DNA from: an uncultured Oscillospiraceae bacterium
GTDB lineage: Bacteria > Bacillota > Clostridia > Oscillospirales > Oscillospiraceae
Direction of reading: 5' to 3'
NCBI GenBank assembly: GCA_947169975.1
Contig: CAMVRT010000003.1
Span: forward strand, 1 to 64,000
DNA length: 64,000 nucleotides
The translations under genes were made by a program, and so were the position numbers. Numbering within the stretch: the first letter of the stretch is position 1; every line of letters starts with the position of its first letter. Below are positions 9,620 to 40,071 of this stretch, in pieces. The notes below the pieces were generated by a model that had not been told where the DNA came from, made no database searches, and saw nothing but the letters and a program-made list of their open reading frames with translations.

Positions 9620-9930
9620 CTTGTCAAAAAAGCCTCGCAGATAAGTGAGTGCCCAAATCTCTGATTTGGCTGCACGAACTAATGCGTTAGCTGTTCGCGC
9701 CGCGCACGGCGCGAAGACATTTAATCGTATTTTGCCGCGGCGTTAAGTGAGCGCCCAAATCTGTGATTTGGCTGCGCGAACTAATGCATGCGAGCGAAGC
9801 GAGTCGTAGTACGTGGCAAAATACACCTCTCAGACTACGAAGTGTGCGAATTGTCCGCCATTGGCGGACAATGAGTGCGCGCAGTAGGCTGCAAGCCTTT
9901 TGCCTAAAAACGGCGAGCCGTTTTTAGGCA
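9620..9930 (-). repeat. Dispersed structured element, copy A (311 nt)
   Basis: Read on -, the copy begins 2 nt after the GTPase stop with hairpin P0 (TGCCTAAAAACGGC arm, 9901-9930). P1 pairs AGCCTAC (9890-9884) with GTAGTCT (9838-9832). P2 pairs GTATTTTGCC (9824-9815) with GGCAAAATAC (9736-9727). P3 is a hairpin at 9694-9715, and the tail ends GCTTTTTTGACAAG at 9620. The P1 loop holds a private ATTGTCCGCC hairpin, the P2 loop holds one hairpin module, and a second module is inserted between P3 and the tail (9643-9693). This accounts for the whole 9617-9932 gap. Confidence 0.85.
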
Positions 9931-9932
9931 GT

Positions 9933-10862
9933 TTAGAAGGAGACGACCTCCTGCTTGGGCTTCTGGCAGTAGCCGATCTTGCTGACGTACAGCACGGGGC
10001 CTTCTCCCTGATAGGCGGGGGACTCCTCCTTCTTGACGGTGGCGGTGATCTCCACCCAGTCACGGTCTTTAAACTTGTCCATGCCCTTGCCCTTGCAAAC
10101 CAAGGCCAGGAACTGCATATCATTCTCACAGCACACCATGGCGAAGCGGCCGGGCACGTCGGTGCCCTTGAACTTCTTGGAGTGGCACATGAGGGCCTTG
10201 AAGGTCACCTGAACGCCGTCGTAGCTCTCCGGGTGGTCCATCAGATCCACGTACCAGACGCCGTAGTCGTCGTCGGGCACGTCCAGCTTGCCGGAGGACA
10301 GGTCAAACGGCCGCATATCCTCGGTGACGTACTCCTCGCTGGTGCCGTCGGCGTTCTCCAGATAGATGTCGGCGCGGCGGTTCACCATGCGCAGGTTGCG
10401 GCTCCGCAGGGCGGCGCGCAGCTCGGCGTTGCAGCGGTTGAAGATCAGCATGTCCGCGTTGGTGATCTTCTCCATCATCAGCTGGCCCATGTTCTTCACG
10501 TACATCTCGAAGGTGTTGGCGTCCACCAGGGTCATGATCTGATAGAGGATCCAGTTGGCGGGCAGGCCGGTGCGGTACAGGGGCTCGATCATCCACATGC
10601 CGTTGTACTCGATGATGACCTGCTTGGGCTTATACTGCTTCTCCAGTTTCTTGAGAAAGTCCGGCGTCAGCTGCTCCGGATCGTCCACCGTATAGGTGAA
10701 CACGTTGCCCAGCACCTTGGGGTCGTACTCCTCCTCGCCCTCCTCGCAGCAGATCAGCAGCGTCCGGTCATCCCGGGCGAAGCCGTCCTGGAGAATGCCG
10801 TTGATGAAATTGGTCTTGCCGGCGTCCAGAAAACCGGCAACCAGATAGACAGGAATATCCAT
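9933..10862 (-). CDS. COG0523-type GTPase fused to a C-terminal TIGR03943-like domain
   Basis: A 309-residue protein. It starts with a P-loop (VYLVAGFLDAGKTNF) of the CobW/UreG-like SIMIBI class. The CxCC metal motif of true CobW proteins is not seen; a CCEEGEEEYD stretch follows at the matching place. From about residue 215 it carries an OB-like segment (PGRFAMVCCENDMQFLALVC, then DWVEITATV) resembling the C-terminal half of YcgQ/TIGR03943 proteins that partner with YcgR permeases. It follows the His-rich GTPase by 16 nt in one operon, so a joint role in metal handling is likely. The exact metal is unknown. Confidence 0.75.
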   Translation of the reverse strand: MDIPVYLVAGFLDAGKTNFINGILQDGFARDDRTLLICCEEGEEEYDPKVLGNVFTYTVDDPEQLTPDFLKKLEKQYKPKQVIIEYNGMWMIEPLYRTGLPANWILYQIMTLVDANTFEMYVKNMGQLMMEKITNADMLIFNRCNAELRAALRSRNLRMVNRRADIYLENADGTSEEYVTEDMRPFDLSSGKLDVPDDDYGVWYVDLMDHPESYDGVQVTFKALMCHSKKFKGTDVPGRFAMVCCENDMQFLALVCKGKGMDKFKDRDWVEITATVKKEESPAYQGEGPVLYVSKIGYCQKPKQEVVSF

Positions 10863-10878
10863 GGGGTCTCGCTTCTCC

Positions 10879-12057
10879 TTACAGCTTGAACAGCTCTTTC
10901 AGTTTCTCTTCCTTCAGCTCCGAGCCGATGACGCAGATGCGGCCGGTATAGTCCGCCGGGCCGTAGCGTACCTCGTGCTCCTCGGGCACGAAGTCGTAAT
11001 GGAGCCAGCGGCCGTCGGCGGCGGGCACGATGCCCTTGGCCCGGAGGATGGCGCCGTAATCGCCGCTGTCCAGCGCGGTGAGGATGGCATCGATCTCGCT
11101 CTCGGTGTAGCGGCGCACCGTCTCCACGCCCCAGCTGGTGAACACCTCATCGGCGTGGTGATGATGGTGATGGTGGCAGGCGCAGTCGGGATCGTCGCAC
11201 TCCTCGCCGTCATGGTGATGATGGTGATGCTCGTGCTCCTCATCGTGATCATGATGGTGATGCTCATGCTCCGCCTCATCATGATCGTGGTGATGGTGAT
11301 GCTCGTGCTCCTCATCGTCGTGATCGTCGTGATCGTGGTGATGGTGATGCTCGTGCTCCTCATCGTCGTGATCGTGGTGATGGTGATGCTCGTGCTCATG
11401 CTCCGCCTCATCTGCCTCATGCTCGGCGCGCATCTTTTCCAGCATCTCGTCGGCCAGGGAGACCTTCTCCACGGCGGAGAGCACGGTCTTGCCGTCCAGC
11501 TGATCCCAGGGGGTGGTCAGGATGGCGGCGGTGGGGTTCTTTTCCCGCAGCAGCGCCACGGCGGCCTCCAGCTTCTCCTGGCTCAGCTTCTGGGTACGGG
11601 AGAGGATGATGGTGCCGGCAGACTCGATCTGGTTGTTGTAGAACTCGCCGAAGTTCTTCATGTAGACCTTCACCTTGCCGGCGTCGGCCACGGTAACAAA
11701 GCTGTTGAGCTTCATGTCCGGCACGTCCTTGACGGTGTTCTCCACCGCCACGATCACGTCGCTGAGCTTGCCCACGCCGGAGGGCTCGATGAGGATGCGG
11801 TCGGGGTGGAACTGCTGCTGCACGTCCTTCAAAGCCGTGGCGAAGTCGCCCACCAGGGAGCAGCAGATACAGCCGGAGGACATCTCGCTGATCTCCACGC
11901 CGGAATCCTTCAGAAAGCCGCCGTCGATGCTGATCTCGCCGAACTCATTTTCGATCAGCACGATTTTCTCGCCCTGATAGGCCTCGGCCAGCATTTTCTT
12001 GATGAGGGTGGTCTTGCCGGCGCCAAGGAAGCCGGAGACGATGTCAATTTTAGTCAT
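10879..12057 (-). CDS. COG0523 (CobW/ZNG1-like) metallochaperone GTPase with a large His-rich loop
   Basis: A 392-residue GTPase. It has Walker A GFLGAGKTTL, ENEFGEISID, the metal-binding SGCICCS (CxCC) motif near residue 63, and SRTQKLS as the guanine-recognition area. Residues about 217-300 are a linker with more than 40 His mixed with Asp/Glu (for example HDHDDEEHEHHHHH) plus a CDDPDCAC Cys cluster, followed by the CobW C-terminal domain (TSWGVETVRRYTESEIDAIL). Such proteins insert or store zinc or a related metal under limitation. The start at 12057 has AGAAGG eight bases upstream; an upstream ATG at 12114 would fall in the promoter area. Confidence 0.92.
   Translation of the reverse strand: MTKIDIVSGFLGAGKTTLIKKMLAEAYQGEKIVLIENEFGEISIDGGFLKDSGVEISEMSSGCICCSLVGDFATALKDVQQQFHPDRILIEPSGVGKLSDVIVAVENTVKDVPDMKLNSFVTVADAGKVKVYMKNFGEFYNNQIESAGTIILSRTQKLSQEKLEAAVALLREKNPTAAILTTPWDQLDGKTVLSAVEKVSLADEMLEKMRAEHEADEAEHEHEHHHHHDHDDEEHEHHHHHDHDDHDDEEHEHHHHHDHDEAEHEHHHHDHDEEHEHHHHHHDGEECDDPDCACHHHHHHHADEVFTSWGVETVRRYTESEIDAILTALDSGDYGAILRAKGIVPAADGRWLHYDFVPEEHEVRYGPADYTGRICVIGSELKEEKLKELFKL
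11156..11410. repeat. Imperfect tandem repeats coding for the His/Asp/Glu-rich loop
   Basis: On the + strand, units of about 39 nt built from GTGATGGTGATGCTCGTG and CTCATCGTCGTGATC recur four to five times with small changes. They code for the acidic His-rich loop of the GTPase, suggesting growth by slippage or unequal recombination. Confidence 0.8.
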
Positions 12058-12100
12058 AGCAAAAACCTTCTTTTCCCTCGCGCCGGAAAGCCGTGCGCGA

Positions 12101-12149
12101 TAATTTATTTCCAATCAAATTATTATAATTAATTCCCTGAAAAAAACAA
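12101..12149 (-). promoter_or_regulatory. Promoter and possible metal-responsive operator of the GTPase pair
   Basis: On -, TTGTTT (12149-12144), a 16-bp spacer and TATAAT (12127-12122) form a good promoter. Immediately downstream is an inverted repeat TAATTT-N10-AAATTA (12101-12122), placed where a repressor would block initiation. It differs from the palindrome before the Fur-family gene at 20515, so shared control is not shown. Confidence 0.6.
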
Positions 12150-12289
12150 GTAATTTGTGCCGCGATGGGGAAAAATTTACAAAAAGGAAAACATTTTACC
12201 GCCGGGAACTTGCATTTTCGGTGGGAATCCTGTAATCTTTTTGGTTGTGTTCGTCCGAAAAAAAGCGGACGCGCTGCAAGGAGGACGGT

Positions 12290-13702
12290 ATGGAAGGAAT
12301 TGTCAACGGAGTCAAAACGGCCAATGACTGGCTGAACAACATTGTCTGGGGCGCGCCGGCCATGGTGCTGATCCTTGCCACCGGGCTGCTGCTGTCGGTC
12401 ATGACACGGTTCCCCCAGTTTACCCATTTCGGCTACGCCATCAAAAATACCATCGGCAAGGCCTTTGAAAAGAAAAAGGTCGCCGCCGGCGCCGTGTCCC
12501 CCTTCAAGGCCATGTGTACGGCTCTGGCCGCCTCTCTGGGCACAGGCAACATCGCCGGTGTGTCCGGCGCTATCGCTATCGGCGGACCGGGCGCTGTGTT
12601 CTGGATGTGGGTCTCCGCCCTCTTCGGCATGTGCACCAAGTACTCCGAGGTCACGCTGGCCATCCGGTACCGGGAACGAAACGCAAACGGTGAATGGGTG
12701 GGCGGCCCCATGTACTATATTAGGAACGGACTGGGCCGCGGCTGGAGCTGGCTGGCCTACGTGTTTGCTTTTCTGGGCGGCGTGGCCTGCTTCGGCATCG
12801 GCAACATGGCCCAGGTGAACACCATCGCCTCCACCGTCAACTCCGCCGTCAGAGAGTTTACGGTCACCGACGCAGGGCAGCAGAAGACCATCGCCCTGGC
12901 GGTGGGCGTCATCTGCGCCGTCATCATCGCGGTTGTTCTGCTGGGCGGCGTCAGCCGCATCGCCGACGTGTGCGCTCTGCTGGTGCCCGCCATGGCCATC
13001 GTCTATATCCTGGCCTCCTTCACCGTCATCGCACTGAACATTACCGCCGTTCCCGCCGCTTTCGCCGCTATTGTCAAGGGCGCCTTCCACCCCTCTGCCG
13101 TAGCGGGCGGCCTGGCCGGTGTTGGCGTCCGTACCGCCATCCGGAAGGGCGTGGGCCGCGGCATCTTCTCCAATGAGGCGGGTCTGGGCTCGGCGCCCAT
13201 GGCCCATGCCGCCGCCGACGTGGATCACCCTGTGAAGCAGGGCCTGTACGGTATCTTCGAGGTGTTCATGGACACCATTGTGGTCTGCACCATCACCTCT
13301 CTGGTGGTGCTGCTGGGCAACGGCGTGGAGAACATCCACTACGGCACCGATATCGGCGCGCAGCTGACCATCAACGGCTTCCAGAGCGTGTTCGGCGGAC
13401 CGCTGCCCGCCGTGGTGGTGGCCGTCTGCCTGAGTCTGTTCGCCCTGTCCACCATCCTCAGCTGGGGTCTCTACGGCGTGCGGTGCTGGGAGTTCCTCGC
13501 CGGTCCCCGGTCCGTCCGCGTTTTTCAGATATTCTTCGTCATCTTCGTGGTGATCGGCGCCGTCATCAAGCTGGATCTGGCCTGGGGCATCGCCGACACC
13601 CTCAACGGCCTCATGGCCATTCCCAACCTGATGGGTGTGATCCTTTTGAGTCCTGTGGTGGCAAAGCTGACGCGGGAGTACTTCCACTCTCATCGGAGAT
13701 GA
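12290..13702 (+). CDS. Sodium:alanine/glycine symporter, AGCS family
   Basis: A 470-residue transporter with about ten to eleven hydrophobic helices that imports small neutral amino acids with sodium. Family blocks are intact: FPQFTHFGYAIK, TALAASLGTGNIAGVSGAIA (substrate and Na+ binding), GPGAVFWMWVSALFGMCTKY, GGPMYYIRNGLG and the IFSNEAGLGSAPMAHAAA motif. Length is typical (450-480). The start at 12290 has AAGGAGG upstream. It is transcribed divergently from the metal GTPases across a 232-bp AT-richer gap in which only the - promoter is clear. Confidence 0.95.
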   Translation: MEGIVNGVKTANDWLNNIVWGAPAMVLILATGLLLSVMTRFPQFTHFGYAIKNTIGKAFEKKKVAAGAVSPFKAMCTALAASLGTGNIAGVSGAIAIGGPGAVFWMWVSALFGMCTKYSEVTLAIRYRERNANGEWVGGPMYYIRNGLGRGWSWLAYVFAFLGGVACFGIGNMAQVNTIASTVNSAVREFTVTDAGQQKTIALAVGVICAVIIAVVLLGGVSRIADVCALLVPAMAIVYILASFTVIALNITAVPAAFAAIVKGAFHPSAVAGGLAGVGVRTAIRKGVGRGIFSNEAGLGSAPMAHAAADVDHPVKQGLYGIFEVFMDTIVVCTITSLVVLLGNGVENIHYGTDIGAQLTINGFQSVFGGPLPAVVVAVCLSLFALSTILSWGLYGVRCWEFLAGPRSVRVFQIFFVIFVVIGAVIKLDLAWGIADTLNGLMAIPNLMGVILLSPVVAKLTREYFHSHRR

Positions 13703-13710
13703 GCCCCAGC

Positions 13711-13742
13711 ACGCAATTTGGTGTTGCCAACGGCGTTTTTTT
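13711..13742 (+). terminator. Terminator after the AGCS gene
   Basis: ACGC-aat-TTGG, a TGTTG loop, CCAA-cg-GCGT and T7 make a modest hairpin with one internal loop. It overlaps the promoter of the SRP RNA gene. Confidence 0.6.
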
Positions 13743-13752
13743 GTAGTAGAAT
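13724..13752 (+). promoter_or_regulatory. Promoter of the SRP RNA gene
   Basis: TTGCCA (13724-13729), exactly 17 bp, then TAGAAT (13747-13752). A start near 13760 agrees with the folded RNA beginning at 13764. Confidence 0.75.
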
Positions 13753-13763
13753 AGTCGCACGAC

Positions 13764-13904
13764 AGCTCCTCCGCGTGCAGCTGCGGAGCCGGTCTCGCGC
13801 AATGGATACCCACGAATCATGTCAGGCGGGGAACCGAGCAGCATTAAGAGGGACCATCCATGTGCCGCGAGGGCGCCGGCTCCGTGGCTTCATGCGGAGG
13901 AGCT
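13764..13904 (+). ncRNA. ffs: Signal recognition particle RNA (small bacterial type)
   Basis: The RNA that binds Ffh to target nascent membrane proteins. The domain IV hairpin is unmistakable: GTCAGGCGGGGAACCGAGCA (13820-13839) holds the GGAA tetraloop, CGG/CCG stem and the symmetric CAGG/AGCA internal loop. The arms fold into a rod: AGCTCCTCCGC (13764-13774) with GCGGAGGAGCT (13894-13904), GGAGCCGG with CCGGCTCC, CTCGCG with CGCGAG, and ATGGAT with ATCCAT. At about 141 nt with no Alu-like domain it differs from the longer Bacillus scRNA, but it keeps the conserved Firmicutes place just upstream of dnaX. Ends are set by pairing and are approximate. Confidence 0.93.
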
Positions 13905-13910
13905 ATCTTC

Positions 13911-14080
13911 ATCCCGAAAACGCTTCGCTGGTTTTCGGGATGAGTTGGTTTGCGGTCTGCTGCAGCGCACTCGCTTCGCTCGCACGTTTGCAGACCGAGA
14001 TGTATTTTTCTGACGCGCATGTCGTCAGAAAAATGATTTGATATCTTCGCGCCTGCGGGCGCGAAATCTGCGATGCTTTC
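13911..14080 (+). repeat. Dispersed structured element, copy E (170 nt, shortest)
   Basis: It starts 6 nt after the SRP RNA. P0 is the ATCCCGAAAAC / GTTTTCGGGAT hairpin (13911-13941). P1 pairs CGGTCTGC (13953-13960) with GCAGACCG (13990-13997). P2 pairs ATTTTTCTGAC (14004-14014) with GTCAGAAAAAT (14024-14034). P3 is TTCGCGCC-TGCG-GGCGCGAA (14046-14065), and the tail is ATCTGCGATGCTTTC. No AAGT...ACTT hairpin module is present, so this copy shows the bare core. No terminator follows before dnaX. Confidence 0.85.
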
Positions 14081-14107
14081 TCATCTTTCTTTGGGAGGTG
14101 TGCCGGG

Positions 14108-15784
14108 ATGTATCAGGCGCTGTACCGCAAATGGCGGCCCAAGACCTTTGACGAGGTGGTGGGACAGGCCCATATCACCGAGACGCTGCGCCGTCAGGTG
14201 GCCGAAGGACGCACCGCCCACGCCTACCTCTTCACCGGCACCCGGGGCACCGGCAAAACCACCTGCGCCCGGATCCTGGCCAAGGCCGTCAACTGCCTCA
14301 ATCCCGTAGACGGCGCGCCATGCTGTCGGTGCGAAGCCTGCCGCAGCATCGACGAGGGACGCGCTCTGGACGTGACGGAGCTGGATGCCGCCAGCAACAA
14401 CGGCGTGGATCAGGTCCGCGCCCTGCGGGAGGAGGCGGTCTACACCCCCTCCGTGCTGCGCCGCCGGGTCTACATCATCGACGAGGTGCACATGCTGTCC
14501 ACCGCGGCCTTCAACGCTCTGCTGAAGATCCTGGAGGAGCCGCCGGAGCATCTGCTGTTCATCCTGGCCACCACGGAGCTGCACAAGGTGCCCGCCACCA
14601 TTCTCTCCCGGTGCCAGCGTTTTTCCTTCAAGCGTATCCTGCCCCGGGACATGGAGCGCCAGCTCCTGAATGTTGCCCGGGCGGAGTCCATCGACCTGAC
14701 GGCCGACGGCGCCGAGATCCTGGCGCGCATGGCAAACGGCGCGCTGCGAGACGCGCTGAGTCTGCTGGATCAGTGCCGCGTGGCGGAGGGTACGCTGAAC
14801 GCCGCCGCCGTGCTGGACGTGCTGGGTCTTGCCGGCAGCATTCAGACCATGGAGCTGATGCGGCTCATTCTGAACCGGGACACCGCCGGTGTGCTGGAGC
14901 ATTTTGACAAGCTGTACCGGGGCGGCAAGGACATCGCCGCAACGCTGGGTGAGCTTAGCGATCTGGGCCGTGATCTGACTGTTCTCAAGGCCGCGCCGGA
15001 AAGCGGCGCCGACCTGCTGACCGGTCTCTACGACCGCAAAACCCTCATTGAGCTGGGGAAAGACGAATCCATGGCCCGCTTCCTCTATCTGACTGCCACC
15101 CTGCAAGCCTGCTGTGCCGCCCTGCCGGACAGCTTCCACCCCCGTACCGACGCGGAGCTGTGCCTGCTGAAGCTGTGTGACGAGAGCCTCTGCGGCGACC
15201 TCTCCGCCCTCTCCCGGCGCATTGAGCGTCTGGAAGCGCGGCTGGACAGCGGCGATATTCCCGTTCCCAGGCATCCCGCCCGGCAGACAAAGCCCACGCC
15301 TCCCGCTCCGGAGCCGGAGGAACAGCCGCCTCTGCCCGAGGAGCCGGCTGACGCCCAGCGGGTCTTTGACGTGCCCGACGAGGCGCCGGTCAAGCCGGCA
15401 CCGGCCAGGCCCGCCACGCCCCCGCCGGCGGGCGACGCCACGTGGGGACAGCTGCTGAATCAGTACAAGGCGCGGCTGCCGGTAAACCACCGGGTCTTTT
15501 TGAACATGGCCACAGGCGTTCTGGTTGGCGACAAGCTGACGGTATACTGCAACAACGATTTCGTCCGCAGCTCTCTGGACAACACCACCGTGCTGACGGT
15601 GCTGCGGGACGTCACCTCCGACGCGGCAAAGCACCCCGTCCGGGTAGAGCTGACAGTGGGACAGCCCCCCGCCGCCTCTGCCGCCGGTTCGGCGCCGGCT
15701 GTTGAGGCCGCTCCGCCGGCCCGGGACCCGCTGGACGAGCTGGCGCGAAACGGCAGTGAGCTGGATCATTTCAGAGTGAAATAA
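14108..15784 (+). CDS. dnaX: DNA polymerase III subunit gamma/tau
   Basis: A 558-residue clamp-loader ATPase that loads the sliding clamp at the replication fork. It opens with MYQALYRKWRPKTFDEVVGQ and has Walker A GTRGTGKTT, the four-Cys zinc knuckle (C..C..CEAC near 70-80), Walker B YIIDEVHML, and the SRC sensor in ILSRCQRFSF. A Pro-rich linker (about 385-450) leads to the tau C-terminal region. GGGAGGTG precedes the ATG. It lies 31 nt before ybaB, as in other Firmicutes. recR, the usual next gene, is not here. Confidence 0.96.
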   Translation: MYQALYRKWRPKTFDEVVGQAHITETLRRQVAEGRTAHAYLFTGTRGTGKTTCARILAKAVNCLNPVDGAPCCRCEACRSIDEGRALDVTELDAASNNGVDQVRALREEAVYTPSVLRRRVYIIDEVHMLSTAAFNALLKILEEPPEHLLFILATTELHKVPATILSRCQRFSFKRILPRDMERQLLNVARAESIDLTADGAEILARMANGALRDALSLLDQCRVAEGTLNAAAVLDVLGLAGSIQTMELMRLILNRDTAGVLEHFDKLYRGGKDIAATLGELSDLGRDLTVLKAAPESGADLLTGLYDRKTLIELGKDESMARFLYLTATLQACCAALPDSFHPRTDAELCLLKLCDESLCGDLSALSRRIERLEARLDSGDIPVPRHPARQTKPTPPAPEPEEQPPLPEEPADAQRVFDVPDEAPVKPAPARPATPPPAGDATWGQLLNQYKARLPVNHRVFLNMATGVLVGDKLTVYCNNDFVRSSLDNTTVLTVLRDVTSDAAKHPVRVELTVGQPPAASAAGSAPAVEAAPPARDPLDELARNGSELDHFRVK

Positions 15785-15815
15785 TGAATTATATCAATCA
15801 AAAGGAGTTACGATC

Positions 15816-16178
15816 ATGGCAAAGGGATACAGTGCAAGAGGCGGTTTTACCGGCGGCTCCGGCATGATGCGCCAGCAGCAGCAGATGCAGCAGAAGCTGC
15901 TGAAGATGCAGGAGGAGATGGCCAAGGCCCAGGAAGAGGTGGAGAGCCGCACCTTTACCTCCTCTGTGGGAGGCGGCGTGGTGCAGGCCACCGTGAACGG
16001 CAAGAAGGAATTGACGGATCTGGTCATCAAGCCGGAGGCCGTGGACAGCGACGACGTGGAGATGCTGCAGGATCTGATCCTCTCCGCCGTCAACGAGGCG
16101 CTGCGTCAGGCCGAGGAGGCCATGAGCAGCTCCATGAATTCCTTTACCGGCGGGCTGAACATCCCCGGGCTTTTGTAA
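15816..16178 (+). CDS. YbaB/EbfC family nucleoid-associated protein
   Basis: A 120-residue small DNA-binding protein, normally a dimer. After a Gly/Gln-rich start (GMMRQQQQMQQKLLKMQEEM) comes the family core: an amphipathic helix, then TSSVGGGVVQATVNGKKELTDLVIKPEAVDSDDVEMLQDLI. It belongs to the dnaX operon in many bacteria and is presumed to affect DNA structure or replication-linked recombination. AAAGGAG precedes the ATG by eight bases. The stop codon is followed without gap by the P0 hairpin of repeat copy B. Confidence 0.94.
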   Translation: MAKGYSARGGFTGGSGMMRQQQQMQQKLLKMQEEMAKAQEEVESRTFTSSVGGGVVQATVNGKKELTDLVIKPEAVDSDDVEMLQDLILSAVNEALRQAEEAMSSSMNSFTGGLNIPGLL

Positions 16179-16417
16179 TCACGCAAAATGGCAGGGCCAT
16201 TTTGCGTGAAAGGGGTTTGCAGCCCACTGCGCGCACTCGCTTCGCTCGCACACTGCGTGGTCTGAGTGGTGTAATTTGCCACGTACTACGACTCGCTTCG
16301 CTCGCATGCATAAGTTCGCGCAGCCAAATCACAGATTTGGGCGCTCACTTAACGCCGCGGCAAATTACGATTTCAAATCTTCGCGCCGTGCGCGGCGCGA
16401 AATCTGCGATGCTTTTT
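16179..16417 (+). repeat. Dispersed structured element, copy B (239 nt)
   Basis: P0 TCACGCAAAATGGC / GCCATTTTGCGTGA (16179-16209) abuts the ybaB stop. AGCCCAC (16221-16227) pairs with GTGGTCT (16257-16263) as P1. GTAATTTGCC (16271-16280) pairs with GGCAAATTAC (16359-16368) as P2, with one hairpin module in its loop around 16313-16351. P3 follows at about 16380-16401 and the tail ATCTGCGATGCTTTTT ends at 16417. Confidence 0.85.
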
Positions 16418-16426
16418 CCCGAATAG

Positions 16427-16469
16427 GAACTGCCCATCCCGGAGTACTCCGGGATGGGCAGTTCTTTTT
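16427..16469 (+). terminator. Intrinsic terminator beyond repeat copy B
   Basis: GAACTGCCCATCCCGGAG is the left arm of a perfect palindrome (16427-16464) followed by TTTTT. The T-run is on + only, so it best serves transcripts coming from dnaX-ybaB through the repeat; it may also act weakly for the - gene ending at 16476. Confidence 0.85.
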
Positions 16470-16475
16470 GTTCAG

Positions 16476-17561
16476 TCATCCGTAGTAGGCCAGCAGCAGA
16501 TCCACCACCATGCCGTAGCTCCGCACGCCGTTGGGATCGCCGTTGGACTTGATGAAGGAGTCGTATGCCTTCTGGCTGGTGTCGGTAAACCTGGTGTGAT
16601 GGGCATCCCAATAGGCGTTGTTGGCCCGGATATCCGCCCGGACACCCTCAGGCAGCGCAGACGCAATCTCCCAGTACGCCTCCGGGTCGACCTCGTACAA
16701 AGCGCCGGCCAGGTGGACATAGCCCATCAGCAGGCCGGAATACCGGAAGACCGGATCGTCGCTCCGGCAGCAAACAGCCACGGCAACGAAATTGCACTCC
16801 TGCTCCAGGGCGATCTGCCGCTGGTGGGCCATCTCGTGGATGGCGGTGGAGGGCAGGAAGGCCGCCGGACAGTCCATGTTGAGATTGGCCTCCCCGGTGA
16901 ACGGGAAATAAAAGCCGGTGAAATCCATGGCCGTCATTGCCCGGGAGCACACGAAGGCCTTGGGCGTCACATCGTCCATGCGGAGGCAGGGAAAGGTGTC
17001 AAAGGCGTCCGCCATGACGGCGGGGGCGGCGGCCAGAATGGCGCGGCGATCGGCGGAAAAAACGCCGTCCTCGTCCCGGGGCACGTCATCCGCCGCCTCG
17101 GCAAGCTCCACAGCGAAACGCTCCGTCAGGCTGCGAAGCTCCGCCGGGCTGCCCTGCCGGGCTGCGATGCCGGAGCGGTCCTGAAAGGTATCTGTGTGGT
17201 AGTTGACGCCCCACAGCAGGCAAAACCCGGCGTAGACCGTCAGTACAAAGCAGACTGCCGTCAGCACGAAGCGGCCCAGAAGCTCCCACTTGTCGCTGCC
17301 CCGGGTGAAAAAGCGCCGGAGTATGCCTGCCACATAGAAGATCGCTCCGGCGATCAGCGACAGATAGATCACCTCGGCCACGGACACATCCACCGCGCTG
17401 CACAGATGGGACATCAGGCTCTTGAAGGGCGTGGTCACCCAGCGGGTCAGCGCGTTCATCAGCGGCCGGCTCTGCCGCAGCAGAAAGTAAGCCGCCAGGA
17501 ACACCGTGACGCATCCCAGCCAGATATACAGGTTTCTGTGGTGTTTCATTTGCGCTTTCAT
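16476..17561 (-). CDS. DUF3810 family membrane protein with a zincin-like motif
   Basis: A 361-residue protein with three hydrophobic segments near the N-terminus (about residues 11-27, 60-85 and 97-120) and a long soluble part. The soluble part contains HEMAHQRQIALEQECNFVA near residue 240, an HExxH-type zinc-binding motif with a downstream Glu that is typical of DUF3810. This suggests a membrane-anchored metallopeptidase, but the family has no settled substrate that I know of. ATG 17561 has GGGGAGAAG upstream. The thioesterase gene lies 21 nt upstream in the same direction. Confidence 0.8.
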   Translation of the reverse strand: MKAQMKHHRNLYIWLGCVTVFLAAYFLLRQSRPLMNALTRWVTTPFKSLMSHLCSAVDVSVAEVIYLSLIAGAIFYVAGILRRFFTRGSDKWELLGRFVLTAVCFVLTVYAGFCLLWGVNYHTDTFQDRSGIAARQGSPAELRSLTERFAVELAEAADDVPRDEDGVFSADRRAILAAAPAVMADAFDTFPCLRMDDVTPKAFVCSRAMTAMDFTGFYFPFTGEANLNMDCPAAFLPSTAIHEMAHQRQIALEQECNFVAVAVCCRSDDPVFRYSGLLMGYVHLAGALYEVDPEAYWEIASALPEGVRADIRANNAYWDAHHTRFTDTSQKAYDSFIKSNGDPNGVRSYGMVVDLLLAYYG

Positions 17562-28367: not shown

Positions 28368-28647
28368 TCGCTCAAAATCTGCGGATTTTGAGCGAGAAGG
28401 CTTGCAGCCCGCTGCGCGCACAGCTAACGCATAAGTTCGCCCACCCAAATCAAAGATTTGGGTGCTCACTTATCGCTTGCGTGAGACGCTCGCACAGCTT
28501 CGCTGCGCTACGCATAAGTTCACCCAACCAAATCAAAGATTTGGGGGTTCACTTAACTTGCGGACTGAGAAGTATTTTTCGCCACGTACACGCCGCGGCG
28601 AAAAATGATTTCATATCTTCGCGCAGAGCGCGAAATCTGCGATGCTT
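28368..28647 (+). repeat. Dispersed structured element, copy C (280 nt)
   Basis: P0 TCGCTCAAAATC-TGCG-GATTTTGAGCGA (28368-28395). P1 pairs AGCCCGC (28406-28412) with GCGGACT (28560-28566); its loop holds two hairpin modules in tandem (28433-28471, 28516-28554). P2 pairs ATTTTTCGCC (28574-28583) with GGCGAAAAAT (28597-28606) and its loop is empty. P3 is TTCGCGC-AGA-GCGCGAA (28618-28634); the tail is ATCTGCGATGCTT. The element splits infB from rbfA, which are normally adjacent. Confidence 0.85.
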
Positions 28648-28654
28648 AACCCTT

Positions 28655-30929: not shown

Positions 30930-30935
30930 ATCGCC

Positions 30936-34332: not shown

Positions 34333-34345
34333 CTCTCCGCAGACG

Positions 34346-34354: not shown

Positions 34355-34384
34355 GCGTTATCAGTCTGCGACAGGAGGGGCGTC

Positions 34385-35353
34385 ATGAAGATCGGCAGCG
34401 TAGAAATCACATCCCGGCTGGCACTGGCGCCTATGGCAGGCGTCACGGATCTGGCCTTCCGGCAGATTTGCCGGGAGCTGGGCGCCGGCATGACCACCAC
34501 GGAGCTGGTCAGCGCCAAGGCCCTGTGCTATCAGGATCAGAAGAGCCGGGGCCTCCTGAAGCTGGGTCCCGGCGAGCATCCCGCCGCCGCCCAGATCTTC
34601 GGCAGCGACATCACGTGCATGGCCGAGGCCGCCCAGATCGCGGCGGAGGTGTCCGGCGCCGACTTCATTGACATCAACATGGGCTGCCCGGTGGGCAAGG
34701 TGGTGGCCAACGGCGACGGCTGCGCCCTGATGAAGGACCCCGAGAAGGCAGCACGCATCGCCGAGGCGGTTGTGAAGGCCTCCCCCGTGCCCGTGACGGT
34801 GAAGATGCGCCGGGGCTGGGACAAGGGCAGCATCAACGCCGTGGCGCTGTCCCAAATGCTGGAGCAGGTGGGCGTGGCGGCCGTCGCCGTACACGGCCGC
34901 ACCCGCACCCAGATGTACGCCGGACAGGCCGACTGGACCACCATCCGGGAGGTGAAGGCGGCGGTGAATATCCCCGTCATCGCCAACGGCGACGTGTTCT
35001 CCGGCGAGGACGCCGTGGCCATTCTGGCCTTCACCGGAGCCGACATGGCCATGATCGGCCGGGGCAGCTTCGGCAACCCCTGGATCTTTCAGCAGGCCCA
35101 GGCCGCGCTGGACGGCGCACCCATCCCGCCGCTCCCCCCGCTGGCGGAGCGGTTCGACACCGCCGTGCGTCAGGTAGAACTGGCGGCGGAGGACAAGGGC
35201 GAGCATATCGCCGTGCTGGAGGCCCGGAAGCAGCTTTGCTGGTATCTGAAAGGCGTGGCCTACGCCAACTACTACAAGGAGCAGATCGTGCGGATGAACA
35301 CTTTGGACGACGTCCACCGCATCGCCCAGGGCGTCAAGCGGGATCTGAGATGA
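34385..35353 (+). CDS. dusB: tRNA-dihydrouridine synthase (DusB family)
   Basis: A 322-residue FMN-dependent enzyme that reduces uridines in tRNA D-loops. Seen are LALAPMAGVTDLAFRQICRE at the start, ADFIDINMGCPVGKVVANGDG with the catalytic Cys, VTVKMRRGWD, VAVHGRTRTQMYAGQADW (FMN and tRNA contacts), IPVIANGDVFSGEDA and MIGRGSFGNPWIF. Length fits the DusB/Dus1 class. CAGGAGGGG lies six bases before the ATG. Single-gene unit between its own promoter and terminator. Confidence 0.94.
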   Translation: MKIGSVEITSRLALAPMAGVTDLAFRQICRELGAGMTTTELVSAKALCYQDQKSRGLLKLGPGEHPAAAQIFGSDITCMAEAAQIAAEVSGADFIDINMGCPVGKVVANGDGCALMKDPEKAARIAEAVVKASPVPVTVKMRRGWDKGSINAVALSQMLEQVGVAAVAVHGRTRTQMYAGQADWTTIREVKAAVNIPVIANGDVFSGEDAVAILAFTGADMAMIGRGSFGNPWIFQQAQAALDGAPIPPLPPLAERFDTAVRQVELAAEDKGEHIAVLEARKQLCWYLKGVAYANYYKEQIVRMNTLDDVHRIAQGVKRDLR

Positions 35354-35366
35354 TCTTATCTCATCG

Positions 35367-35401
35367 AACAGGCGGTTTTCTACGGAAAACCGCCTGTTTT
35401 T
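35367..35401 (+). terminator. Intrinsic terminator after dusB
   Basis: AACAGGCGGTTTTC / GAAAACCGCCTGTT followed by T-rich sequence. Confidence 0.85.
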
Positions 35402-35414
35402 GTGCAAAAAAAGC

Positions 35415-35442
35415 TTGACTTTTTTCCCCGATCCGATATAAT
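35415..35442 (+). promoter_or_regulatory. Promoter of the rpsF-ssb-rpsR operon
   Basis: TTGACT (35415-35420), 16 bp, TATAAT (35437-35442). The 80-nt leader to rpsF contains GGCTCGC and GCGAG-g-GGCC segments able to pair around a smaller CTCGC/GCGAG hairpin; S6 operons often carry an S6:S18-binding leader, but I cannot confirm that motif here. Confidence 0.75.
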
Positions 35443-35523
35443 AAATAGGCTCGCGTATCAGCGGGTAAATCCTTGCTCTCGCCTGTGAGCGAGGGCCATT
35501 TGTCCAGAAGGAGGTGCAAAAGT

Positions 35524-35820
35524 ATGGCTAAGATTTCTGCCAACTACGAGGTCGTTTACATCATCGACCCTGCACAGGGTGAGGAGGCTATTGCCGCTAC
35601 CGTGGCAAAGTTCCAGGCTCTGGCTGAGCAGAACGGTACCAACGTGGTCGTAGACGAGTGGGGCACGCGCAAGCTGGCCTATGCCATCGACTACAAGACC
35701 GAGGGACACTATGTTCTGATGTCCTTCACCAGCGGTCCCGAGTTCCCCAAGGAGCTGGATCGTATCCTCGGCATTACCGAGGGCATCATGCGTTCCATGA
35801 TCGTCTGCAAGGGCGAGTAA
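35524..35820 (+). CDS. rpsF: Ribosomal protein bS6
   Basis: A 98-residue 30S protein of the platform that pairs with bS18. Family text: ANYEVVYIIDPAQGEEAIAA, NVVVDEWGTRKLAYAIDYKTEGHYVLM and DRILGITEGIMRSMIV. ATG 35524 has AAGGAGG eight bases upstream; an upstream in-frame ATG would read through the leader hairpin. First gene of the classical rpsF-ssb-rpsR operon. Confidence 0.97.
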   Translation: MAKISANYEVVYIIDPAQGEEAIAATVAKFQALAEQNGTNVVVDEWGTRKLAYAIDYKTEGHYVLMSFTSGPEFPKELDRILGITEGIMRSMIVCKGE

Positions 35821-35832
35821 GGGAGGAGCGTC

Positions 35833-36279
35833 ATGCTGAACAGAATCGTTATCATGGGCCGTCTGGCCCGTGATCCCGAGCTGCGTCGGACCCAGAGCGG
35901 CATCGCGGTAACCTCTTTCCGTATCGCCTGCGACCGGGATTTCAAGTCCCAGAACGGCGAAAAGGGTACGGATTGGATCGACGTGGTTGCCTGGCGTCAG
36001 ACCGCCGAGTTCGTGTCCAAGTACTTCAGCAAGGGCCGCATGGCCATTGTGGAAGGTCGGCTGCAGAGCCGCGACTGGACGGACAAGGACGGGAACAAGC
36101 GCACGGCCATTGAGGTCGTTGCCGACAACGTCTATTTTGGTGACAGCAAGCGTGACGGCGCTGACCGGGGCGACAGCTTCGGCGGCTTCAACGCCCCTGC
36201 CGGCGGTTATTCCGCCCCCATCGGCGGCACTTCCGAGTTTGCCGAGATCGACGACGAGGACGGCGAGCTGCCGTTCTAA
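35833..36279 (+). CDS. ssb: Single-stranded DNA-binding protein
   Basis: A 148-residue OB-fold protein that coats single-stranded DNA and recruits repair and replication partners. The OB domain (MLNRIVIMGRLARDPELRRTQSG, then WIDVVAWRQTAEFVSKYFSKG, VEGRLQSRDWTDKDGNKR) is followed by a Gly/Pro-rich linker and the acidic partner-binding tip DDEDGELPF. GGGAGGAG precedes the ATG, 12 nt after rpsF. It is the housekeeping copy by context. Confidence 0.97.
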   Translation: MLNRIVIMGRLARDPELRRTQSGIAVTSFRIACDRDFKSQNGEKGTDWIDVVAWRQTAEFVSKYFSKGRMAIVEGRLQSRDWTDKDGNKRTAIEVVADNVYFGDSKRDGADRGDSFGGFNAPAGGYSAPIGGTSEFAEIDDEDGELPF

Positions 36280-36324
36280 CGTGCCTTTGAGCACAACATA
36301 CTTTTGTTGAAGGAGGAAAATTCC

Positions 36325-36576
36325 ATGGCTATGGAACGCGAAAATAGAGCTCCCCGCGCCAATATCCGCAAGCGCAAGAAGGTCTGCCAGTTCTGCGTGG
36401 ATAAGGTCGAGTGCATCGACTATAAGGATGCTGCCAAGCTGCGCCGCTTCATCAGCGAGCGCTCCAAGATCCTGCCCCGCCGCACCACCGGCACCTGCGC
36501 CATGCATCAGCGCCAGCTGACCGAGGCCATCAAGCGCGCCCGTCAGATCGCCCTGCTGCCTTTCGTGACCGAGTAA
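36325..36576 (+). CDS. rpsR: Ribosomal protein bS18
   Basis: An 83-residue 30S protein. The core [48 protein letters not shown] matches bS18. It keeps Cys residues (CQFC, C, C), the zinc-binding-type form, as opposed to the Cys-free form some genomes hold as a spare. ATG 36325 has AAGGAGG upstream, 45 nt after ssb. Followed by a strong terminator. Confidence 0.96.
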
Positions 36577-36592
36577 TTTGGCCGAATAGTTG

Positions 36593-36630
36593 AAAAAAAG
36601 CTCCGGATCCTGTGGATCCGGAGCTTTTTT
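36593..36630. terminator. Bidirectional terminator between rpsR and dCMP deaminase
   Basis: AGCTCCGGATCC-TGT-GGATCCGGAGCT with A7 on the left and T6 on the right, between convergent genes. Confidence 0.93.
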
Positions 36631-36640
36631 ATTTCGTTTT

Positions 36641-37123
36641 CTACCGCGCCAGCTGGGGCAGGTCGTCCTCCTTGACCCAATCCTGCACATCCACCACCTC
36701 GTACTCGGTGGGGGTGCGGCGGATCACCACCCGGGCGATGCCGGCATTGATGACGGTGCGGCGGCACATGGAGCAGCTGGTGGCGTCGGAGAGCAGCTCG
36801 CCGGTCTGGGCGTTGCGGCCCACCAGATAGAGGGTGGCGCCCACCATATCCCGCCGGGCGGCGGAGATGATGGCGTTGGCCTCGGCGTGGACGCTGCGGC
36901 ACAGCTCGTACCGTTCCCCACGGGGCACGGCCATGGCCTCCCGGGTGCAGTAGCCCATATCCACGCAGTTGCGGCGGCCGCGGGGCGCGCCGTTGTAGCC
37001 GGTGGAGATGATCTCGTCATTCTTCACGATGATGGCGCCGTACACACGCCTGAGGCAGGTAGCTCGCTCCAGCACCGTCTGGGCGATATCCAGATAGTAG
37101 TTCTCCTTGCTGATGCGCTCCAT
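36641..37123 (-). CDS. dCMP deaminase (ComEB-like)
   Basis: A 160-residue zinc enzyme that turns dCMP to dUMP, feeding dTMP synthesis. The zinc site is complete: SVHAEANAIISAARRD (His plus catalytic Glu) and ATSCSMCRRTVINAG (two Cys). The N-terminal RATCLRRVYGAIIVKNDEIISTGYNGAPRGRRNCVD block is typical, with an extra Cys/His zinc pair. ATG 37123 has AAGGAGG upstream. It works in the same nucleotide pool as the cytidine deaminase at 7306. Confidence 0.93.
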   Translation of the reverse strand: MERISKENYYLDIAQTVLERATCLRRVYGAIIVKNDEIISTGYNGAPRGRRNCVDMGYCTREAMAVPRGERYELCRSVHAEANAIISAARRDMVGATLYLVGRNAQTGELLSDATSCSMCRRTVINAGIARVVIRRTPTEYEVVDVQDWVKEDDLPQLAR

Positions 37124-37190
37124 GGGCAGGCCCTCCTTGCTGGTTTTTTCTCAATATAGCATACGCGGCGGTGGGTTGCAAGCCTTACTA

Positions 37191-38294
37191 TCAGAATGCC
37201 AGCCAGAACAGGTTTGTGTCAGCGGCAAAGTTGCTCATCTCATACAGTACCAGCACGTCGGTGACATTCTCTCCCGCGATCAGATCCGATACGGAATCGG
37301 TATATGACCGCAGATCCAGCATGATGATGGTCTCGTAATCCTCTGTCAGAAACGGCACGAAGGAGTTGGCAAAGGAGTCCTTCACCACCAGCAGCGTTTT
37401 CCCGTTCTTCACGCCCGTGTCGATGGTCACCCGGGGCCAGTTGCCGCCGAAGAACACAGCGTATTTGTCCTTCTCGGACAGCTTATCGCGATCGTACATG
37501 GAGTCTGTCACCGTGCCGCCACAGTCCACCGAGCGCACGGTGGCCCCCTCGGCCAGAGAAATGGTGTCCCGGGCGCTGTCCGGCAGCAGCACCTTGGAGT
37601 ACAGAGTACCCCGGAAGCTGTCCGTTGCCGGCGTCAGCGGCATGCTGCGGCGGGTGTGTCCGGTGGCGTCGCACCAGACGCCGTAAGCGCTCTGCGCCCC
37701 CTCGGTGGTCCAGTGGTGGTCGGTGCGGTAGTAGGGCTGATCCAGCGCAGACAGCGCGCCGCGCACGTCGATCACCCGGTCCTCTCCCACCGTCTGCGCC
37801 AGCTGATCGTGACGCGATGCGGCGTCGTACATGGGGGCATTGGCGGGAAGAAGGTCGGACAGCACCGTGGACGGCGATGGCACCAGCAGGATGCGGCAGT
37901 CCACGTCTTTGTTGTCATCAAAAAACATGGCCACCAGCTGAAGGTTTTTTTCGTATTGCTTCTGGTTAAACTCGTTCTCCGTCAGCCGCGCGAAAAAGTA
38001 GCCGTCGCGCCCCAGATAGACGCCGCCGATGTCCTGCTTTCCGGCAAGACGCTGGAACCAGGAGGCGGTGCCCATCCACACATCCCGCAGAGCGATCTGG
38101 TCGCTCTCATACTTTTCCGCCTCCGCCGTGAATTTGCCGGAGAAAACCCGCTCCTTCGTCAGAGCCGGGGCTTGCTGGAGGACACGGTTCTCATTGGGGG
38201 AAAACTCCCTGTCGGGAAGCAAAAGGGTGGCGATGGACAGGCCCAGCAGGATCACCGCAATGGCGATGAGGGGCGGCAATTCTCTTTTTATCAT
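37191..38294 (-). CDS. DHHW family protein (AlgJ/AlgX-like, SGNH fold)
   Basis: A 367-residue protein with one N-terminal transmembrane segment (LPPLIAIAVILLGLSIATLLL) and an extracellular domain with the DHHW signature (YYRTDHHWTTEGAQSAYGVW) near residue 190. The later KTLLVVKDSFANSFVPFL holds the DSF of the SGNH-like active site. DHHW proteins act with MBOAT acyltransferases, passing acetyl groups to secreted polysaccharide or wall polymers. It lies 11 nt after the MBOAT gene in one operon. AAGGAGGGG precedes the ATG. The polymer acted on is unknown. Confidence 0.88.
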   Translation of the reverse strand: MIKRELPPLIAIAVILLGLSIATLLLPDREFSPNENRVLQQAPALTKERVFSGKFTAEAEKYESDQIALRDVWMGTASWFQRLAGKQDIGGVYLGRDGYFFARLTENEFNQKQYEKNLQLVAMFFDDNKDVDCRILLVPSPSTVLSDLLPANAPMYDAASRHDQLAQTVGEDRVIDVRGALSALDQPYYRTDHHWTTEGAQSAYGVWCDATGHTRRSMPLTPATDSFRGTLYSKVLLPDSARDTISLAEGATVRSVDCGGTVTDSMYDRDKLSEKDKYAVFFGGNWPRVTIDTGVKNGKTLLVVKDSFANSFVPFLTEDYETIIMLDLRSYTDSVSDLIAGENVTDVLVLYEMSNFAADTNLFWLAF

Positions 38295-38305
38295 ATTGCC
38301 CCTCC

Positions 38306-39706
38306 TTAAAACCGGAAATACAAAAACGGGTTGTAGCTGTCGCCCACCAAAAAGGCGATGCTCAGCAGCAGGATCACCGTGACGCCCACGGTGCGCAGAG
38401 CCACCGCCGCTCCCTCGGAGACGCGGCCGGACAGCTTCTCCCAGGCCTTAACAGGCAGCGTGGTGCTGCCGATCAGCGCCAGTACCAGCAGCACGGCGTT
38501 GGAGCGCAGCAGATACAGAGCGGTGCCGTCGGCAAAGCGGGCGGTGAACATATGGCTCACGTACGCGCCCAGCTGGGCAAAATCGGTGATGGCAAACAGC
38601 ACCCAGCCCATGACAAAGCACAGGCATGTATAGATATGCCCGAACACACGGGGGATGCGCTCCAGCCAGCGAAGCAGAAACGTCTTCTCCGCGATCAGCA
38701 GCACGGCGTAGTAGACGCCCCAGAGCACGAAGTTCCAGCTGGCGCCGTGCCAGAGGCCGGTGAGGAACCAGACGATGGCCAGATTCAGGATCTGCCGGGC
38801 CATGCCCTTCCGGTTGCCGCCCAGGGGAATATACACATATTCCCGGAACCAGGTACCCAGACTGATGTGCCAGCGGCGCCAGAACTCCGTGACACTGCGG
38901 GACTCATAGGGATAGCGGAAGTTCTCCAGAAACGTAAATCCGAACAGATGGCCCAAGCCGATGGCCATGTCGGAGTAGCCGGAGAAATCGAAGTAGATCT
39001 GGAAGGTGAAGGCAATGGCGCCCAGCCACGCCGTCAAGGCCGAGGGCTGGGGCATGGCGGAGATGGTCTCCCAGATAGCGCCCGCCTGATTGGCGATCAG
39101 CACCTTCTTGCCCAGTCCGATAACAAAGCGCTGCATGCCGCGGCTGGCCTCCAGCCAGTTCTCCTGCCGCGCATGGAGCTGGTGCTCCACTGTTTTGTAC
39201 TGAACGATGGGGCCGGCAATGAGCTGGGGGAACAGCGTCACGTAAGCGGCGAAGTCCACAATATTCCGCTGGGACGCCACCTGTCCGCGGTAGACGTCAA
39301 TGGTATAGGACATGGTCTGGAAGGTGTAGAAGGAGATGCCGATGGGCAGCGCCAGCCCCAGCGCGGGGATGCCCTGGGACAGCAGACTGTTGATGTTGGC
39401 GATGGCAAAATCGGTGTATTTGAAGAAGCCCAGGATCCCCAGGTTGCCCACCACAGAAAGGATCAGCACGGCTTTGGCGCCCCACTCCCTGTTATGGCGG
39501 CGGAAATACCCGATGCCCAGACCGTTGCAGTAGTCGAACACCGTGGAGAAGAGCATGATGAGGATGTATTTGGGCTCGCCCCAGCCATAAAACAGCAGGC
39601 TGGCCAGCAGCAGCACGACATTGCGGCCTTTGCGGGGGCAGAGATAGTACAAAATCGCCACCAGCGGCAAAAACAGCAGCAGAAAAACGGTGCTGGAAAA
39701 AACCAT
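38306..39706 (-). CDS. MBOAT family O-acyltransferase (AlgI/DltB-like)
   Basis: A 466-residue polytopic membrane enzyme with about eleven helices that moves acyl groups across the membrane. Typical blocks: LPLVAILYYLCPRKGRNVVLLLASLLFYGWGEPKY, LPIGISFYTFQTMSYTIDVYRG, YFDFSGYSDMAIGLGHLFGF, ENFRYPYESRSVTEFWRRWHISLGTWFREYVYIPLGG and the catalytic His in FLTGLWHGASWNFVLWG. It is flanked by two DHHW genes, giving an AlgI-AlgJ-like machine. ATG 39706 has AAAGGA upstream. Confidence 0.94.
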   Translation of the reverse strand: MVFSSTVFLLLFLPLVAILYYLCPRKGRNVVLLLASLLFYGWGEPKYILIMLFSTVFDYCNGLGIGYFRRHNREWGAKAVLILSVVGNLGILGFFKYTDFAIANINSLLSQGIPALGLALPIGISFYTFQTMSYTIDVYRGQVASQRNIVDFAAYVTLFPQLIAGPIVQYKTVEHQLHARQENWLEASRGMQRFVIGLGKKVLIANQAGAIWETISAMPQPSALTAWLGAIAFTFQIYFDFSGYSDMAIGLGHLFGFTFLENFRYPYESRSVTEFWRRWHISLGTWFREYVYIPLGGNRKGMARQILNLAIVWFLTGLWHGASWNFVLWGVYYAVLLIAEKTFLLRWLERIPRVFGHIYTCLCFVMGWVLFAITDFAQLGAYVSHMFTARFADGTALYLLRSNAVLLVLALIGSTTLPVKAWEKLSGRVSEGAAVALRTVGVTVILLLSIAFLVGDSYNPFLYFRF

Positions 39707-39738
39707 GTGCGCGGATTCCTTTCAAAATTCATGCAGAA

Positions 39739-39763
39739 ATGGGACAGAAGGGCTCTGTCCCAT
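39739..39763 (-). terminator. Hairpin between repeat copy D and the MBOAT gene
   Basis: ATGGGACAGA and TCTGTCCCAT form a 10-bp stem. On - it is followed by TTCTGC, a poor T-run, so it may be a weak terminator or a leader hairpin of the MBOAT gene. Confidence 0.5.
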
Positions 39764-39770
39764 TCCTCAT

Positions 39771-40071
39771 CTTGTCAAAAAGCATCGCAGATTTCGCGCC
39801 GTGCGCGGCGCGAAGACATTTCATCGTATTTTGCCGCGGCATTAAGTGAGCGCCCAAATCTGTGATTTGGCTGCGCGAACTTATGCATGCGAGCGAAGCG
39901 AGTCGTAGTACGTGGCAAAATACACCTCTCAGCCTGCCAGTGTGCGAGCGTCTCACGCAAGCGATAAGTAAGCCCCCAAATCTTTGATTTGGCTGGGCGA
40001 ACTTATGCGTTAGCTGTGCGCGCAGCAGGCTGCAAGCCTTTTATCAAAAAACGGCATTGCCGTTTTTTGAT
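39771..40071 (-). repeat. Dispersed structured element, copy D (301 nt)
   Basis: On -, it starts 4 nt after the DHHW stop: P0 ATCAAAAAACGGC / GCCGTTTTTTGAT (40043-40071). P1 AGCCTGC (40031-40025) pairs with GCAGGCT (39937-39931), with one hairpin module in its loop (39966-40004). P2 GTATTTTGCC (39923-39914) pairs with GGCAAAATAC (39835-39826), with a second module in its loop (39844-39882). P3 is at 39793-39814 and the tail ends GCTTTTTGACAAG at 39771, the same end as copy A. Confidence 0.85.

Follow-up and report, generated by a model that had tools for sequence, protein, structure and literature searches.

Transposons of the IS1182 family offer close described parallels to the repeat analyzed here, a short palindromic element that occurs five times in a 64,000-nucleotide stretch of DNA, referred to as the window, from an uncultured Oscillospiraceae bacterium (GenBank assembly GCA_947169975.1, contig CAMVRT010000003.1, positions 1 to 64,000). 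One member of that family, IS1272/TnSha1 of staphylococci, targets hairpins, often terminators, with little sequence preference, according to passages of its description (PMC4923244). This targeting is what it has in common with our element. The same passages describe a blunt cut with partial deletion of the stem-loop and no target duplication, whereas the copies designated class I below duplicate the whole hairpin; IS1272 also encodes its own transposase and is not a miniature inverted-repeat transposable element (MITE), while the elements here are gene-less (PMC4923244). IS1182-related MITEs of 160 and 169 bp, with 14 and 7 copies and ISMac2 as partner, are described for Methanosarcina acetivorans in passages of a second source (PMC3852290). 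They too are short, non-autonomous and associated with an IS1182 partner, but they belong to another domain of life, and the likeness was drawn on length, copy number and repeat sizes alone (PMC3852290). Pneumococcal BOX, RUP and SPRITE repeats are likewise folded, interspersed and nested in one another; BOX is modular, and SPRITE is terminator-like and lies near gene 3' ends (PMC3049150, PMC10969869). In the passages found these repeats are streptococcal, and their sequence and ends are unlike those of our element (PMC3049150, PMC10969869). Among the matches listed, the open-access literature contained no description of such repeats in the order Oscillospirales, which is weak evidence of absence. 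REP (repetitive extragenic palindromic) and BIME (bacterial interspersed mosaic element) sequences are extragenic palindromes of 3' regions whose presumed mover is a Y1 (RAYT) transposase; they resemble our element in being palindromes in that position and differ from it in length, ends and presumed enzyme.

The five window copies, A to E, were confirmed by sequence inspection and by a covariance model, R1, where the original prediction, made from the letters of the window, had placed them. All five have one order of parts: hairpin P0, GGCTTGCAG-like text, stem P1, a GAG link, stem P2, hairpin P3 and a tail. R1 was built on an alignment (A2) of nine copies that lack a further hairpin, module M. 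We favor, at a probability of roughly 0.7, the explanation that these repeats are miniature non-autonomous IS1182-type transposons, almost wholly palindromic. Two classes were distinguished by eye. Class I is an IS1182-type MITE by its ends and target duplicates, and class II is probably one as well. The family is real and wide; its novelty lies in the palindromic build and the covariation.

Class I and class II copies

Seventeen copies in the genome belong to class I. They have a common P0 (TGTCAAAAAACGGC..GCCGTTTTTTGACA, with one substitution in one copy) and the ends GAGACTGTCAAAAAA and TTTTTTGACAAGCTG, the latter kept with at most one change in 14 of the 17. The eight that lack module M are 97.3–100% identical across 28 pairs. 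Exact duplicates of 20–36 bp flank 10 of the 17 copies and contain a terminator hairpin, whole or in part, while only 1 of 1406 mismatched flank pairs in a control attains 12 bp. Another species of the genus, G018, gave a similar result: 10 of 28 copies examined (of 71) have a duplicate of at least 12 bp, compared with 0 of 756 control pairs. Open reading frame (ORF) analysis, which used a simple heuristic caller and covered all own copies except L066 and L081, placed 15 class I copies 43–262 nt from the nearest upstream gene, on the same strand except for L060.

The genome has a single PF13751 transposase (locus L051), assigned to IS1182 by NCBIfam (NF033551, 397 bits, cut-off 270). The right end of this transposon, TTCTTTGACAAGCTGA, adjoins a hairpin, and its left side appears truncated. 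In a relative, G031, a left end CAGTCTGTCAAAAAAC with the transposase start lies on one contig end and a right end TTTGACAATCTG with the transposase finish on another. The same 33-bp hairpin flanks both contig ends, which we read as two sides of one insertion. The class I ends GAGACTGTCAAAAAA and TTTTTTGACAAGCTG resemble the transposon ends CAGTCTGTCAAAAAAC and TTTGACAATCTG, and TTCTTTGACAAGCTGA. Class I is thus identified as an IS1182-type MITE, because it combines hairpin duplicates with ends like those of an IS1182-family transposon that itself has a 33-bp hairpin duplicate. Target duplicates in the IS1182 family can span 0–60 bp. By eye, locus L050 shows, at about 1157–1400, a different short element flanked on each side by a terminator hairpin; its left end is of the IS1182 type and its right end is palindromic.

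The position of class II is distinct: these copies begin 0–9 nt past a same-strand stop codon, as the ORF caller found for 15 of 36 own copies and inspection by eye for L295. IS1182-type right ends are present in window copies A and D, and L052 and L053 perhaps carry decayed ones; the four class II copies with a recognizable right end match it within 4 changes of 15, two of them weakly, at 4 changes. The interior and one P0 type are common to both classes. In G018, several similar class II copies, most of them directly after stop codons, form a subfamily marked by a P0 of its own, TGGCGAAAAA..TTTTTCTGCCA. Two minimal remnants, CAAAATCTGCGATGCTTTT, also lie directly after stop codons (L025 and L029, near 1500); their form would fit a fusion of P0 with the tail through a common AAATCTGCG.

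Copy number and distribution

R1 returned 39 matches in the 2.16-Mb genome, of which 38 were kept; the discarded match (E 6e-4) is a weak antisense echo of copy A. Of 247 candidates from a first look, 150 were scored in this search, and the count leaves out short remnants, L025 and L029 among them. The window yielded the five copies and the antisense echo. Further copies therefore exist beyond the window, as predicted, but the original estimate of a few hundred was too high; the window is locally rich, with five copies in 64 kb versus about one per 57 kb genome-wide. When up to three mismatches are allowed, the 21-base tail has 29 matches in the genome; a reversed-pattern control gave 0.

The counts from other genomes all include the own genome and are lower bounds, with 46 candidates scored per genome in the survey of relatives and 7 in those of order and class. 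R1 matched at least 35 of 60 relatives, including at least 31 of the 32 genus genomes. Within the order, at least 50 of 394 genomes, spread over five families, carry the element; of 391 genomes sampled from the class at least 3 do, all of the own family (E 1e-5). Copies number 69 in G042 and 71 in G018. Among the matches listed, where 75 of 80 loci match the model, the named carriers include Flavonifractor, Pseudoflavonifractor, Papillibacter cinnamivorans and Candidatus Intestinimonas. Cultured carriers are Papillibacter cinnamivorans DSM 12816 and Flavonifractor sp. An82, for which L232, L189 and L205 match the model. Three of eight loci classed as viral by IMG/VR also match, one of them weakly (L283 786–970 and 2054–2238; L285 2265–2422; weak, L287 550–660). 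A known Rfam family, named beforehand as a finding that would speak against novelty, was absent at gathering score over the window elements and in 18 other loci. A permissive Rfam scan of window positions 9500–16600 gave weak sub-threshold matches only, including mir-59 over the P0 of copy E at 24.1 bits (gathering 80, E 0.19).

Presence and absence at orthologous sites were called full, partial or none by eye, with the own genome included. The infB-rbfA site was matched in 31 of 32 genus genomes. Among the 30 loci read, 8 have a full element, 3 a partial one, 1 an inverted one behind the locus hairpin, 2 a P0-like hairpin only and 16 none. At ffs-dnaX, 30 loci comprise 5 full, 5 partial and 20 none or unclear. 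The groES-groEL site was matched in 57 of 60 relatives, and the 30 loci read comprise 2 full, 6 partial and 22 none, the full copies being the own one, whose tail is decayed, and that of G036, which belongs to another genus. The own groES-groEL copy and L423 have a common P0, AAAGGGGGAA..TTCCCCCTTTAGATCCCCC, which L415 and L417 resemble, suggesting that the insertion is old and has been lost in many lineages. Constant presence was found at none of these three loci. The patchy presence, together with related P0 hairpins at fixed sites, indicates that copies are dispensable yet able to last long. Inverted copies exist as well (L344 and, by eye, L011 and L167). The prediction of a mobile palindromic element thus finds support in empty orthologous sites as well as in the IS1182-type ends, hairpin duplicates and near-identical young copies of class I. 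It had also described the element as unlike an insertion sequence, which is correct for the element itself and misses the IS1182 link.

Covariation and G-U content of the stems

The hairpins covary strongly. Two sets of copies were aligned, A3 with 81 named copies chosen by a pattern that fixes the P3 3' arm, so that P3 is biased, and A4 with 99 copies chosen by the model. Set A3 includes several matches cut at locus ends, and its alignment was fitted to the model structure, which favors pairing; in it, 91.8% of cells are paired, compared with 33–50% in slid structures, and 43 of 53 pairs show double changes. None of 500 shuffles reached the observed value on any of five measures. The outer closing helix is weak, at 80.8% paired.

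The kind of base change differs from that of an RNA control. In the signal recognition particle (SRP) RNA, represented by 28 distinct genus sequences of one RNA family, G-U makes up 134 of 1402 standard pairs (9.6%), and one-sided and double changes stand at 49:75. P0 has 11 G-U among 850 pairs (1.3%) and a ratio of 9:321 in A3, and 12 among 1092 with 6:468 in A4. For P3 the values are 5 of 634 (0.8%) and 5:20 in A3, where selection was biased, and 4 of 764 and 4:151 in A4. P2 holds 51 G-U in 958 pairs (15:301) in A3, 48 of these 51 at the outermost pair, and 74 in 1252 (17:276) in A4. The G-U tolerance of RNA helices is accordingly missing in P0 and P3. P1 and the outer helix fall outside this pattern: P1 is not G-U-poor (A3, 38 of 538 or 7.1%, 37:90; A4, 48 of 742, 36:134), and the outer helix is G-U-rich (A3, 175 of 590, 88:9; A4, 158 of 758, 125:46). 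When P0 was folded alone, 20 of 1076 and 27 of 1346 pairs were G-U. Orthologous P0 hairpins matter here because sets of distant copies can hide intermediates. At infB-rbfA, 8 of 10 such hairpins could be aligned (the gapped L142 and L151 were left out) and showed a one-sided to double ratio of 1:16. The native infB-rbfA hairpin, used as a control at 26 of 30 loci, gave 8 one-sided changes and 1 double, a result that carries little weight, since several of its rows are misaligned.

Template switching between arms, a process proposed for RNA hairpins in passages of an earlier report (PMC8794818), would produce such double changes without intermediates; the alternative is selection for pairing on both strands. 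The scarcity of G-U points to upkeep of the palindromes at the DNA level rather than to RNA selection. These data bear directly on the second possibility raised in the original prediction, a recurring 3' untranslated region (UTR) RNA. Under it, a functional structured RNA, acting in stability, termination or as a small RNA, would have spread by mobility and be kept by selection on its fold. Pairing conserved beyond chance in A3 agrees with this, as do the stop-codon position of 15 of 36 own copies and L295, the related copies at infB-rbfA and groES-groEL across several lineages, and the conserved unpaired text in P2. However, that pairing was measured on an alignment fitted to the model, the closing helix is weak, and G-U is scarce in P0 and P3 and mostly confined to the outermost pair in P2, unlike in SRP RNA. 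In addition, the element is absent or unclear at most loci of the three orthologous sites (16, 20 and 22 of 30), some copies are inverted and neighboring genes vary. We consider a functional RNA unlikely. The class II position fits the RNA proposal, while the base-change pattern and the absences in many relatives oppose a conserved RNA function, so that of the two possibilities first raised the mobile element is favored.

Proposed mechanism and alternatives

As judged from sequence, an IS1182-family transposase would act in trans on the element ends and aim at hairpins. Such aiming would bring copies to the ends of genes, where an insertion costs the host little. Class I would arise when the target hairpin is copied to both sides, and class II by entry at one border of the interval between stop codon and hairpin, with the hairpin left uncopied. 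The arms of P0, P2 and P3 would be kept complementary largely at the DNA level, by template switching or another palindrome-dependent process, which would explain why P0 appears gene-specific yet remains a hairpin. Module M, a second hairpin, seems to have entered many copies of this genome. The family can be explained without a host function, though some class II copies seem long in place.

Several observations weigh against this mechanism. No duplicate reaches 10 bp in any of the 21 own copies that fall outside class I, among them the 15 of class II, and 11 of these 15 have no recognizable IS1182 right end. Inspection by eye of the infB-rbfA and groES-groEL flanks revealed no consistent short target duplicate for class II, and groES-groEL relatives without the element show no hairpin target. 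Even in class I, 7 of 17 copies lack a 20-bp duplicate (12, 11, 11, 6, 6, 6 and 5 bp). Of the 32 genus genomes, 5 gave relatives of the transposase, most of them fragmentary or lying at the end of a contig; the same search found none in the copy-rich G018. Multi-copy elements dropping out of draft assemblies may perhaps account for this scarcity, but G018 has 3 contigs only. G-U scarcity could also result from functional selection on both strands: A-C mismatches, which correspond to G-U on the opposite strand, are likewise infrequent in P0 (7 and 33 in the two sets). Finally, the core (P2 loop, GAG..GT.TTTT and tail) is kept in five families, beyond the needs of a MITE.

The absence of duplicates and of most right ends in class II, together with the G018 subfamily that has its own P0 and lies mostly behind stop codons, could mean that class II is a separate mobile family, moved by another enzyme that favors stop-codon edges, and that class I descends from it after capture by IS1182 ends. 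The IS1182-type right ends of A and D, the perhaps decayed ones of L052 and L053, and the interior and P0 type found in both classes speak against such a division, which we think rather improbable. REP/BIME-like palindromes mobilized by a Y1 (RAYT) transposase would also account for a hairpin mosaic of extragenic palindromes behind stop codons and for class II copies without duplicates. This is very improbable, since class I has DDE-type transposon ends and duplicates and the element is longer than REP units. A further proposal is that the P1-P2-P3 core, with conserved P2 loop and tail, which five families retain although its stems vary in sequence, forms a folded single-stranded DNA or RNA needed for mobility or host tolerance, that the element rides on hairpin-targeting IS1182 transposition and that its stems are renewed by template switching. 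We hold this only tentatively; it retains weight because the class II mobilizer, the scarcity of transposase, the missing duplicates and the conserved core all bear on the MITE explanation.

If the IS1182-type transposon explanation is true, it accounts for a repeat that many genomes of a gut order carry in tens of copies and implies that an IS1182-type insertion can copy an entire terminator. It would also counsel caution in RNA discovery, where palindromic mobile DNA could yield strong covariation, and would make the lack of G-U a simple test for such DNA. Should the core prove necessary, the element would be a new kind of structured mobile element.

Architecture of the element and the window copies

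P0 is a hairpin whose arms, in the window copies, carry a run of A on one side and a run of T on the opposite side. It had been called gene-specific; it is not gene-derived, as element-free infB-rbfA sites have no P0. That absence also rules out P0 as the terminator of the upstream gene, as does the further hairpin of their own that copies A–D carry after the element (by eye). The right-hand hairpin and P0 were considered as two copies of one target and rejected because their sequences differ, and a single gene partner was ruled out by the diversity of neighboring genes. P1, P2 and P3 are enclosed by imperfect inverted repeats, AAAGGCTTGCAG and CTGCGA(T/G)GCTTT, so that the GGCTTGCAG text, first described as opening P1, is rather the left partner of the tail. 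The P2 loop reads ACG(T/C)(A/G)CA(C/T)G(C/T)CG in many copies, though not, for example, in L204 and L209 (by eye). Module M is a separate hairpin, TAAGT..CCAAATCANAGATTTGG..ACTTA, inserted in P1, in P2 or in the gap between P3 and tail. Nine copies without it span 166–187 nt, P0 through tail, which leaves no room for a transposase; the predicted length range of 170–311 nt holds as a range, but much of it is owed to inserted M. Module M was also found apart from model matches (L010 near 308; L028 near 523, 1344 and, on the minus strand, 2481), and for this reason it appears to be another small repeat, nested within the first.

Copy A (9617–9930, minus strand) starts 3 nt past the stop of the gene at 9933–10862. 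P0 (9901–9930) is followed by P1, GAG (9828–9832), P2 holding a module M, P3 (9694–9715), a second M, the tail (9630–9640) and an IS1182-type right end TTTTTTGACAAGCTG (9617–9631), with a terminator-like hairpin directly adjoining. Its tail has the class I form CTGCGAGGC and is parted from P3 by M, a correction to the predicted order of parts. Copy A is thus mixed: it combines a class I interior and an intact right end with a class II position and its own P0, and it lacks a hairpin copy on the left. An older copy altered by gene conversion is one possible origin of this state.

Copies B, C and D belong to class II. The P0 of copy B (16179–16417, plus strand) begins 0 nt past the ybaB stop; M lies in P2, and P3 (16380–16401) and tail (16404–16414) are followed by a terminator-like hairpin. 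Copy C (28368–28648, plus strand) sits in the infB-rbfA gap, 9 nt past the infB stop, with two M in P1, P3 at 28618–28634, the tail at 28637–28647 and the locus hairpin next. Copy D (39771–40072, minus strand) begins 3 nt past the stop of a DHHW-protein gene. It has M in both P1 and P2, P3 at 39793–39814, the tail at 39780–39790 and a near-intact IS1182-type right end, CTTTTTGACAAGATG, before a terminator-like hairpin. Copy E (13911–14080, plus strand) lies between the SRP RNA gene and dnaX. It lacks M and has the P2 loop ACGCGCATGTCGT at 14013–14025, P3 at 14046–14065 and the tail at 14068–14078. The SRP RNA gene, ffs (13786–13885, plus strand), ends 25 nt ahead of it, and its orthologues served as the RNA control.

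Some copies outside the window have unusual forms. One copy, L007/L296 (G000:C8:18239-18551), has two tails, the second of them past a further short hairpin, and its P0 region is atypical. G042 loci such as L119, L297 and L321 have extra long palindromes just upstream of P0 that differ among copies. The genus also has another dispersed intergenic repeat, CTGTCATTG.GAG...CTCG.A(A/G)TGACA, which occupies the groES-groEL gap of L408, L409, L411 and L412 and has similar counterparts in L018 and L051.

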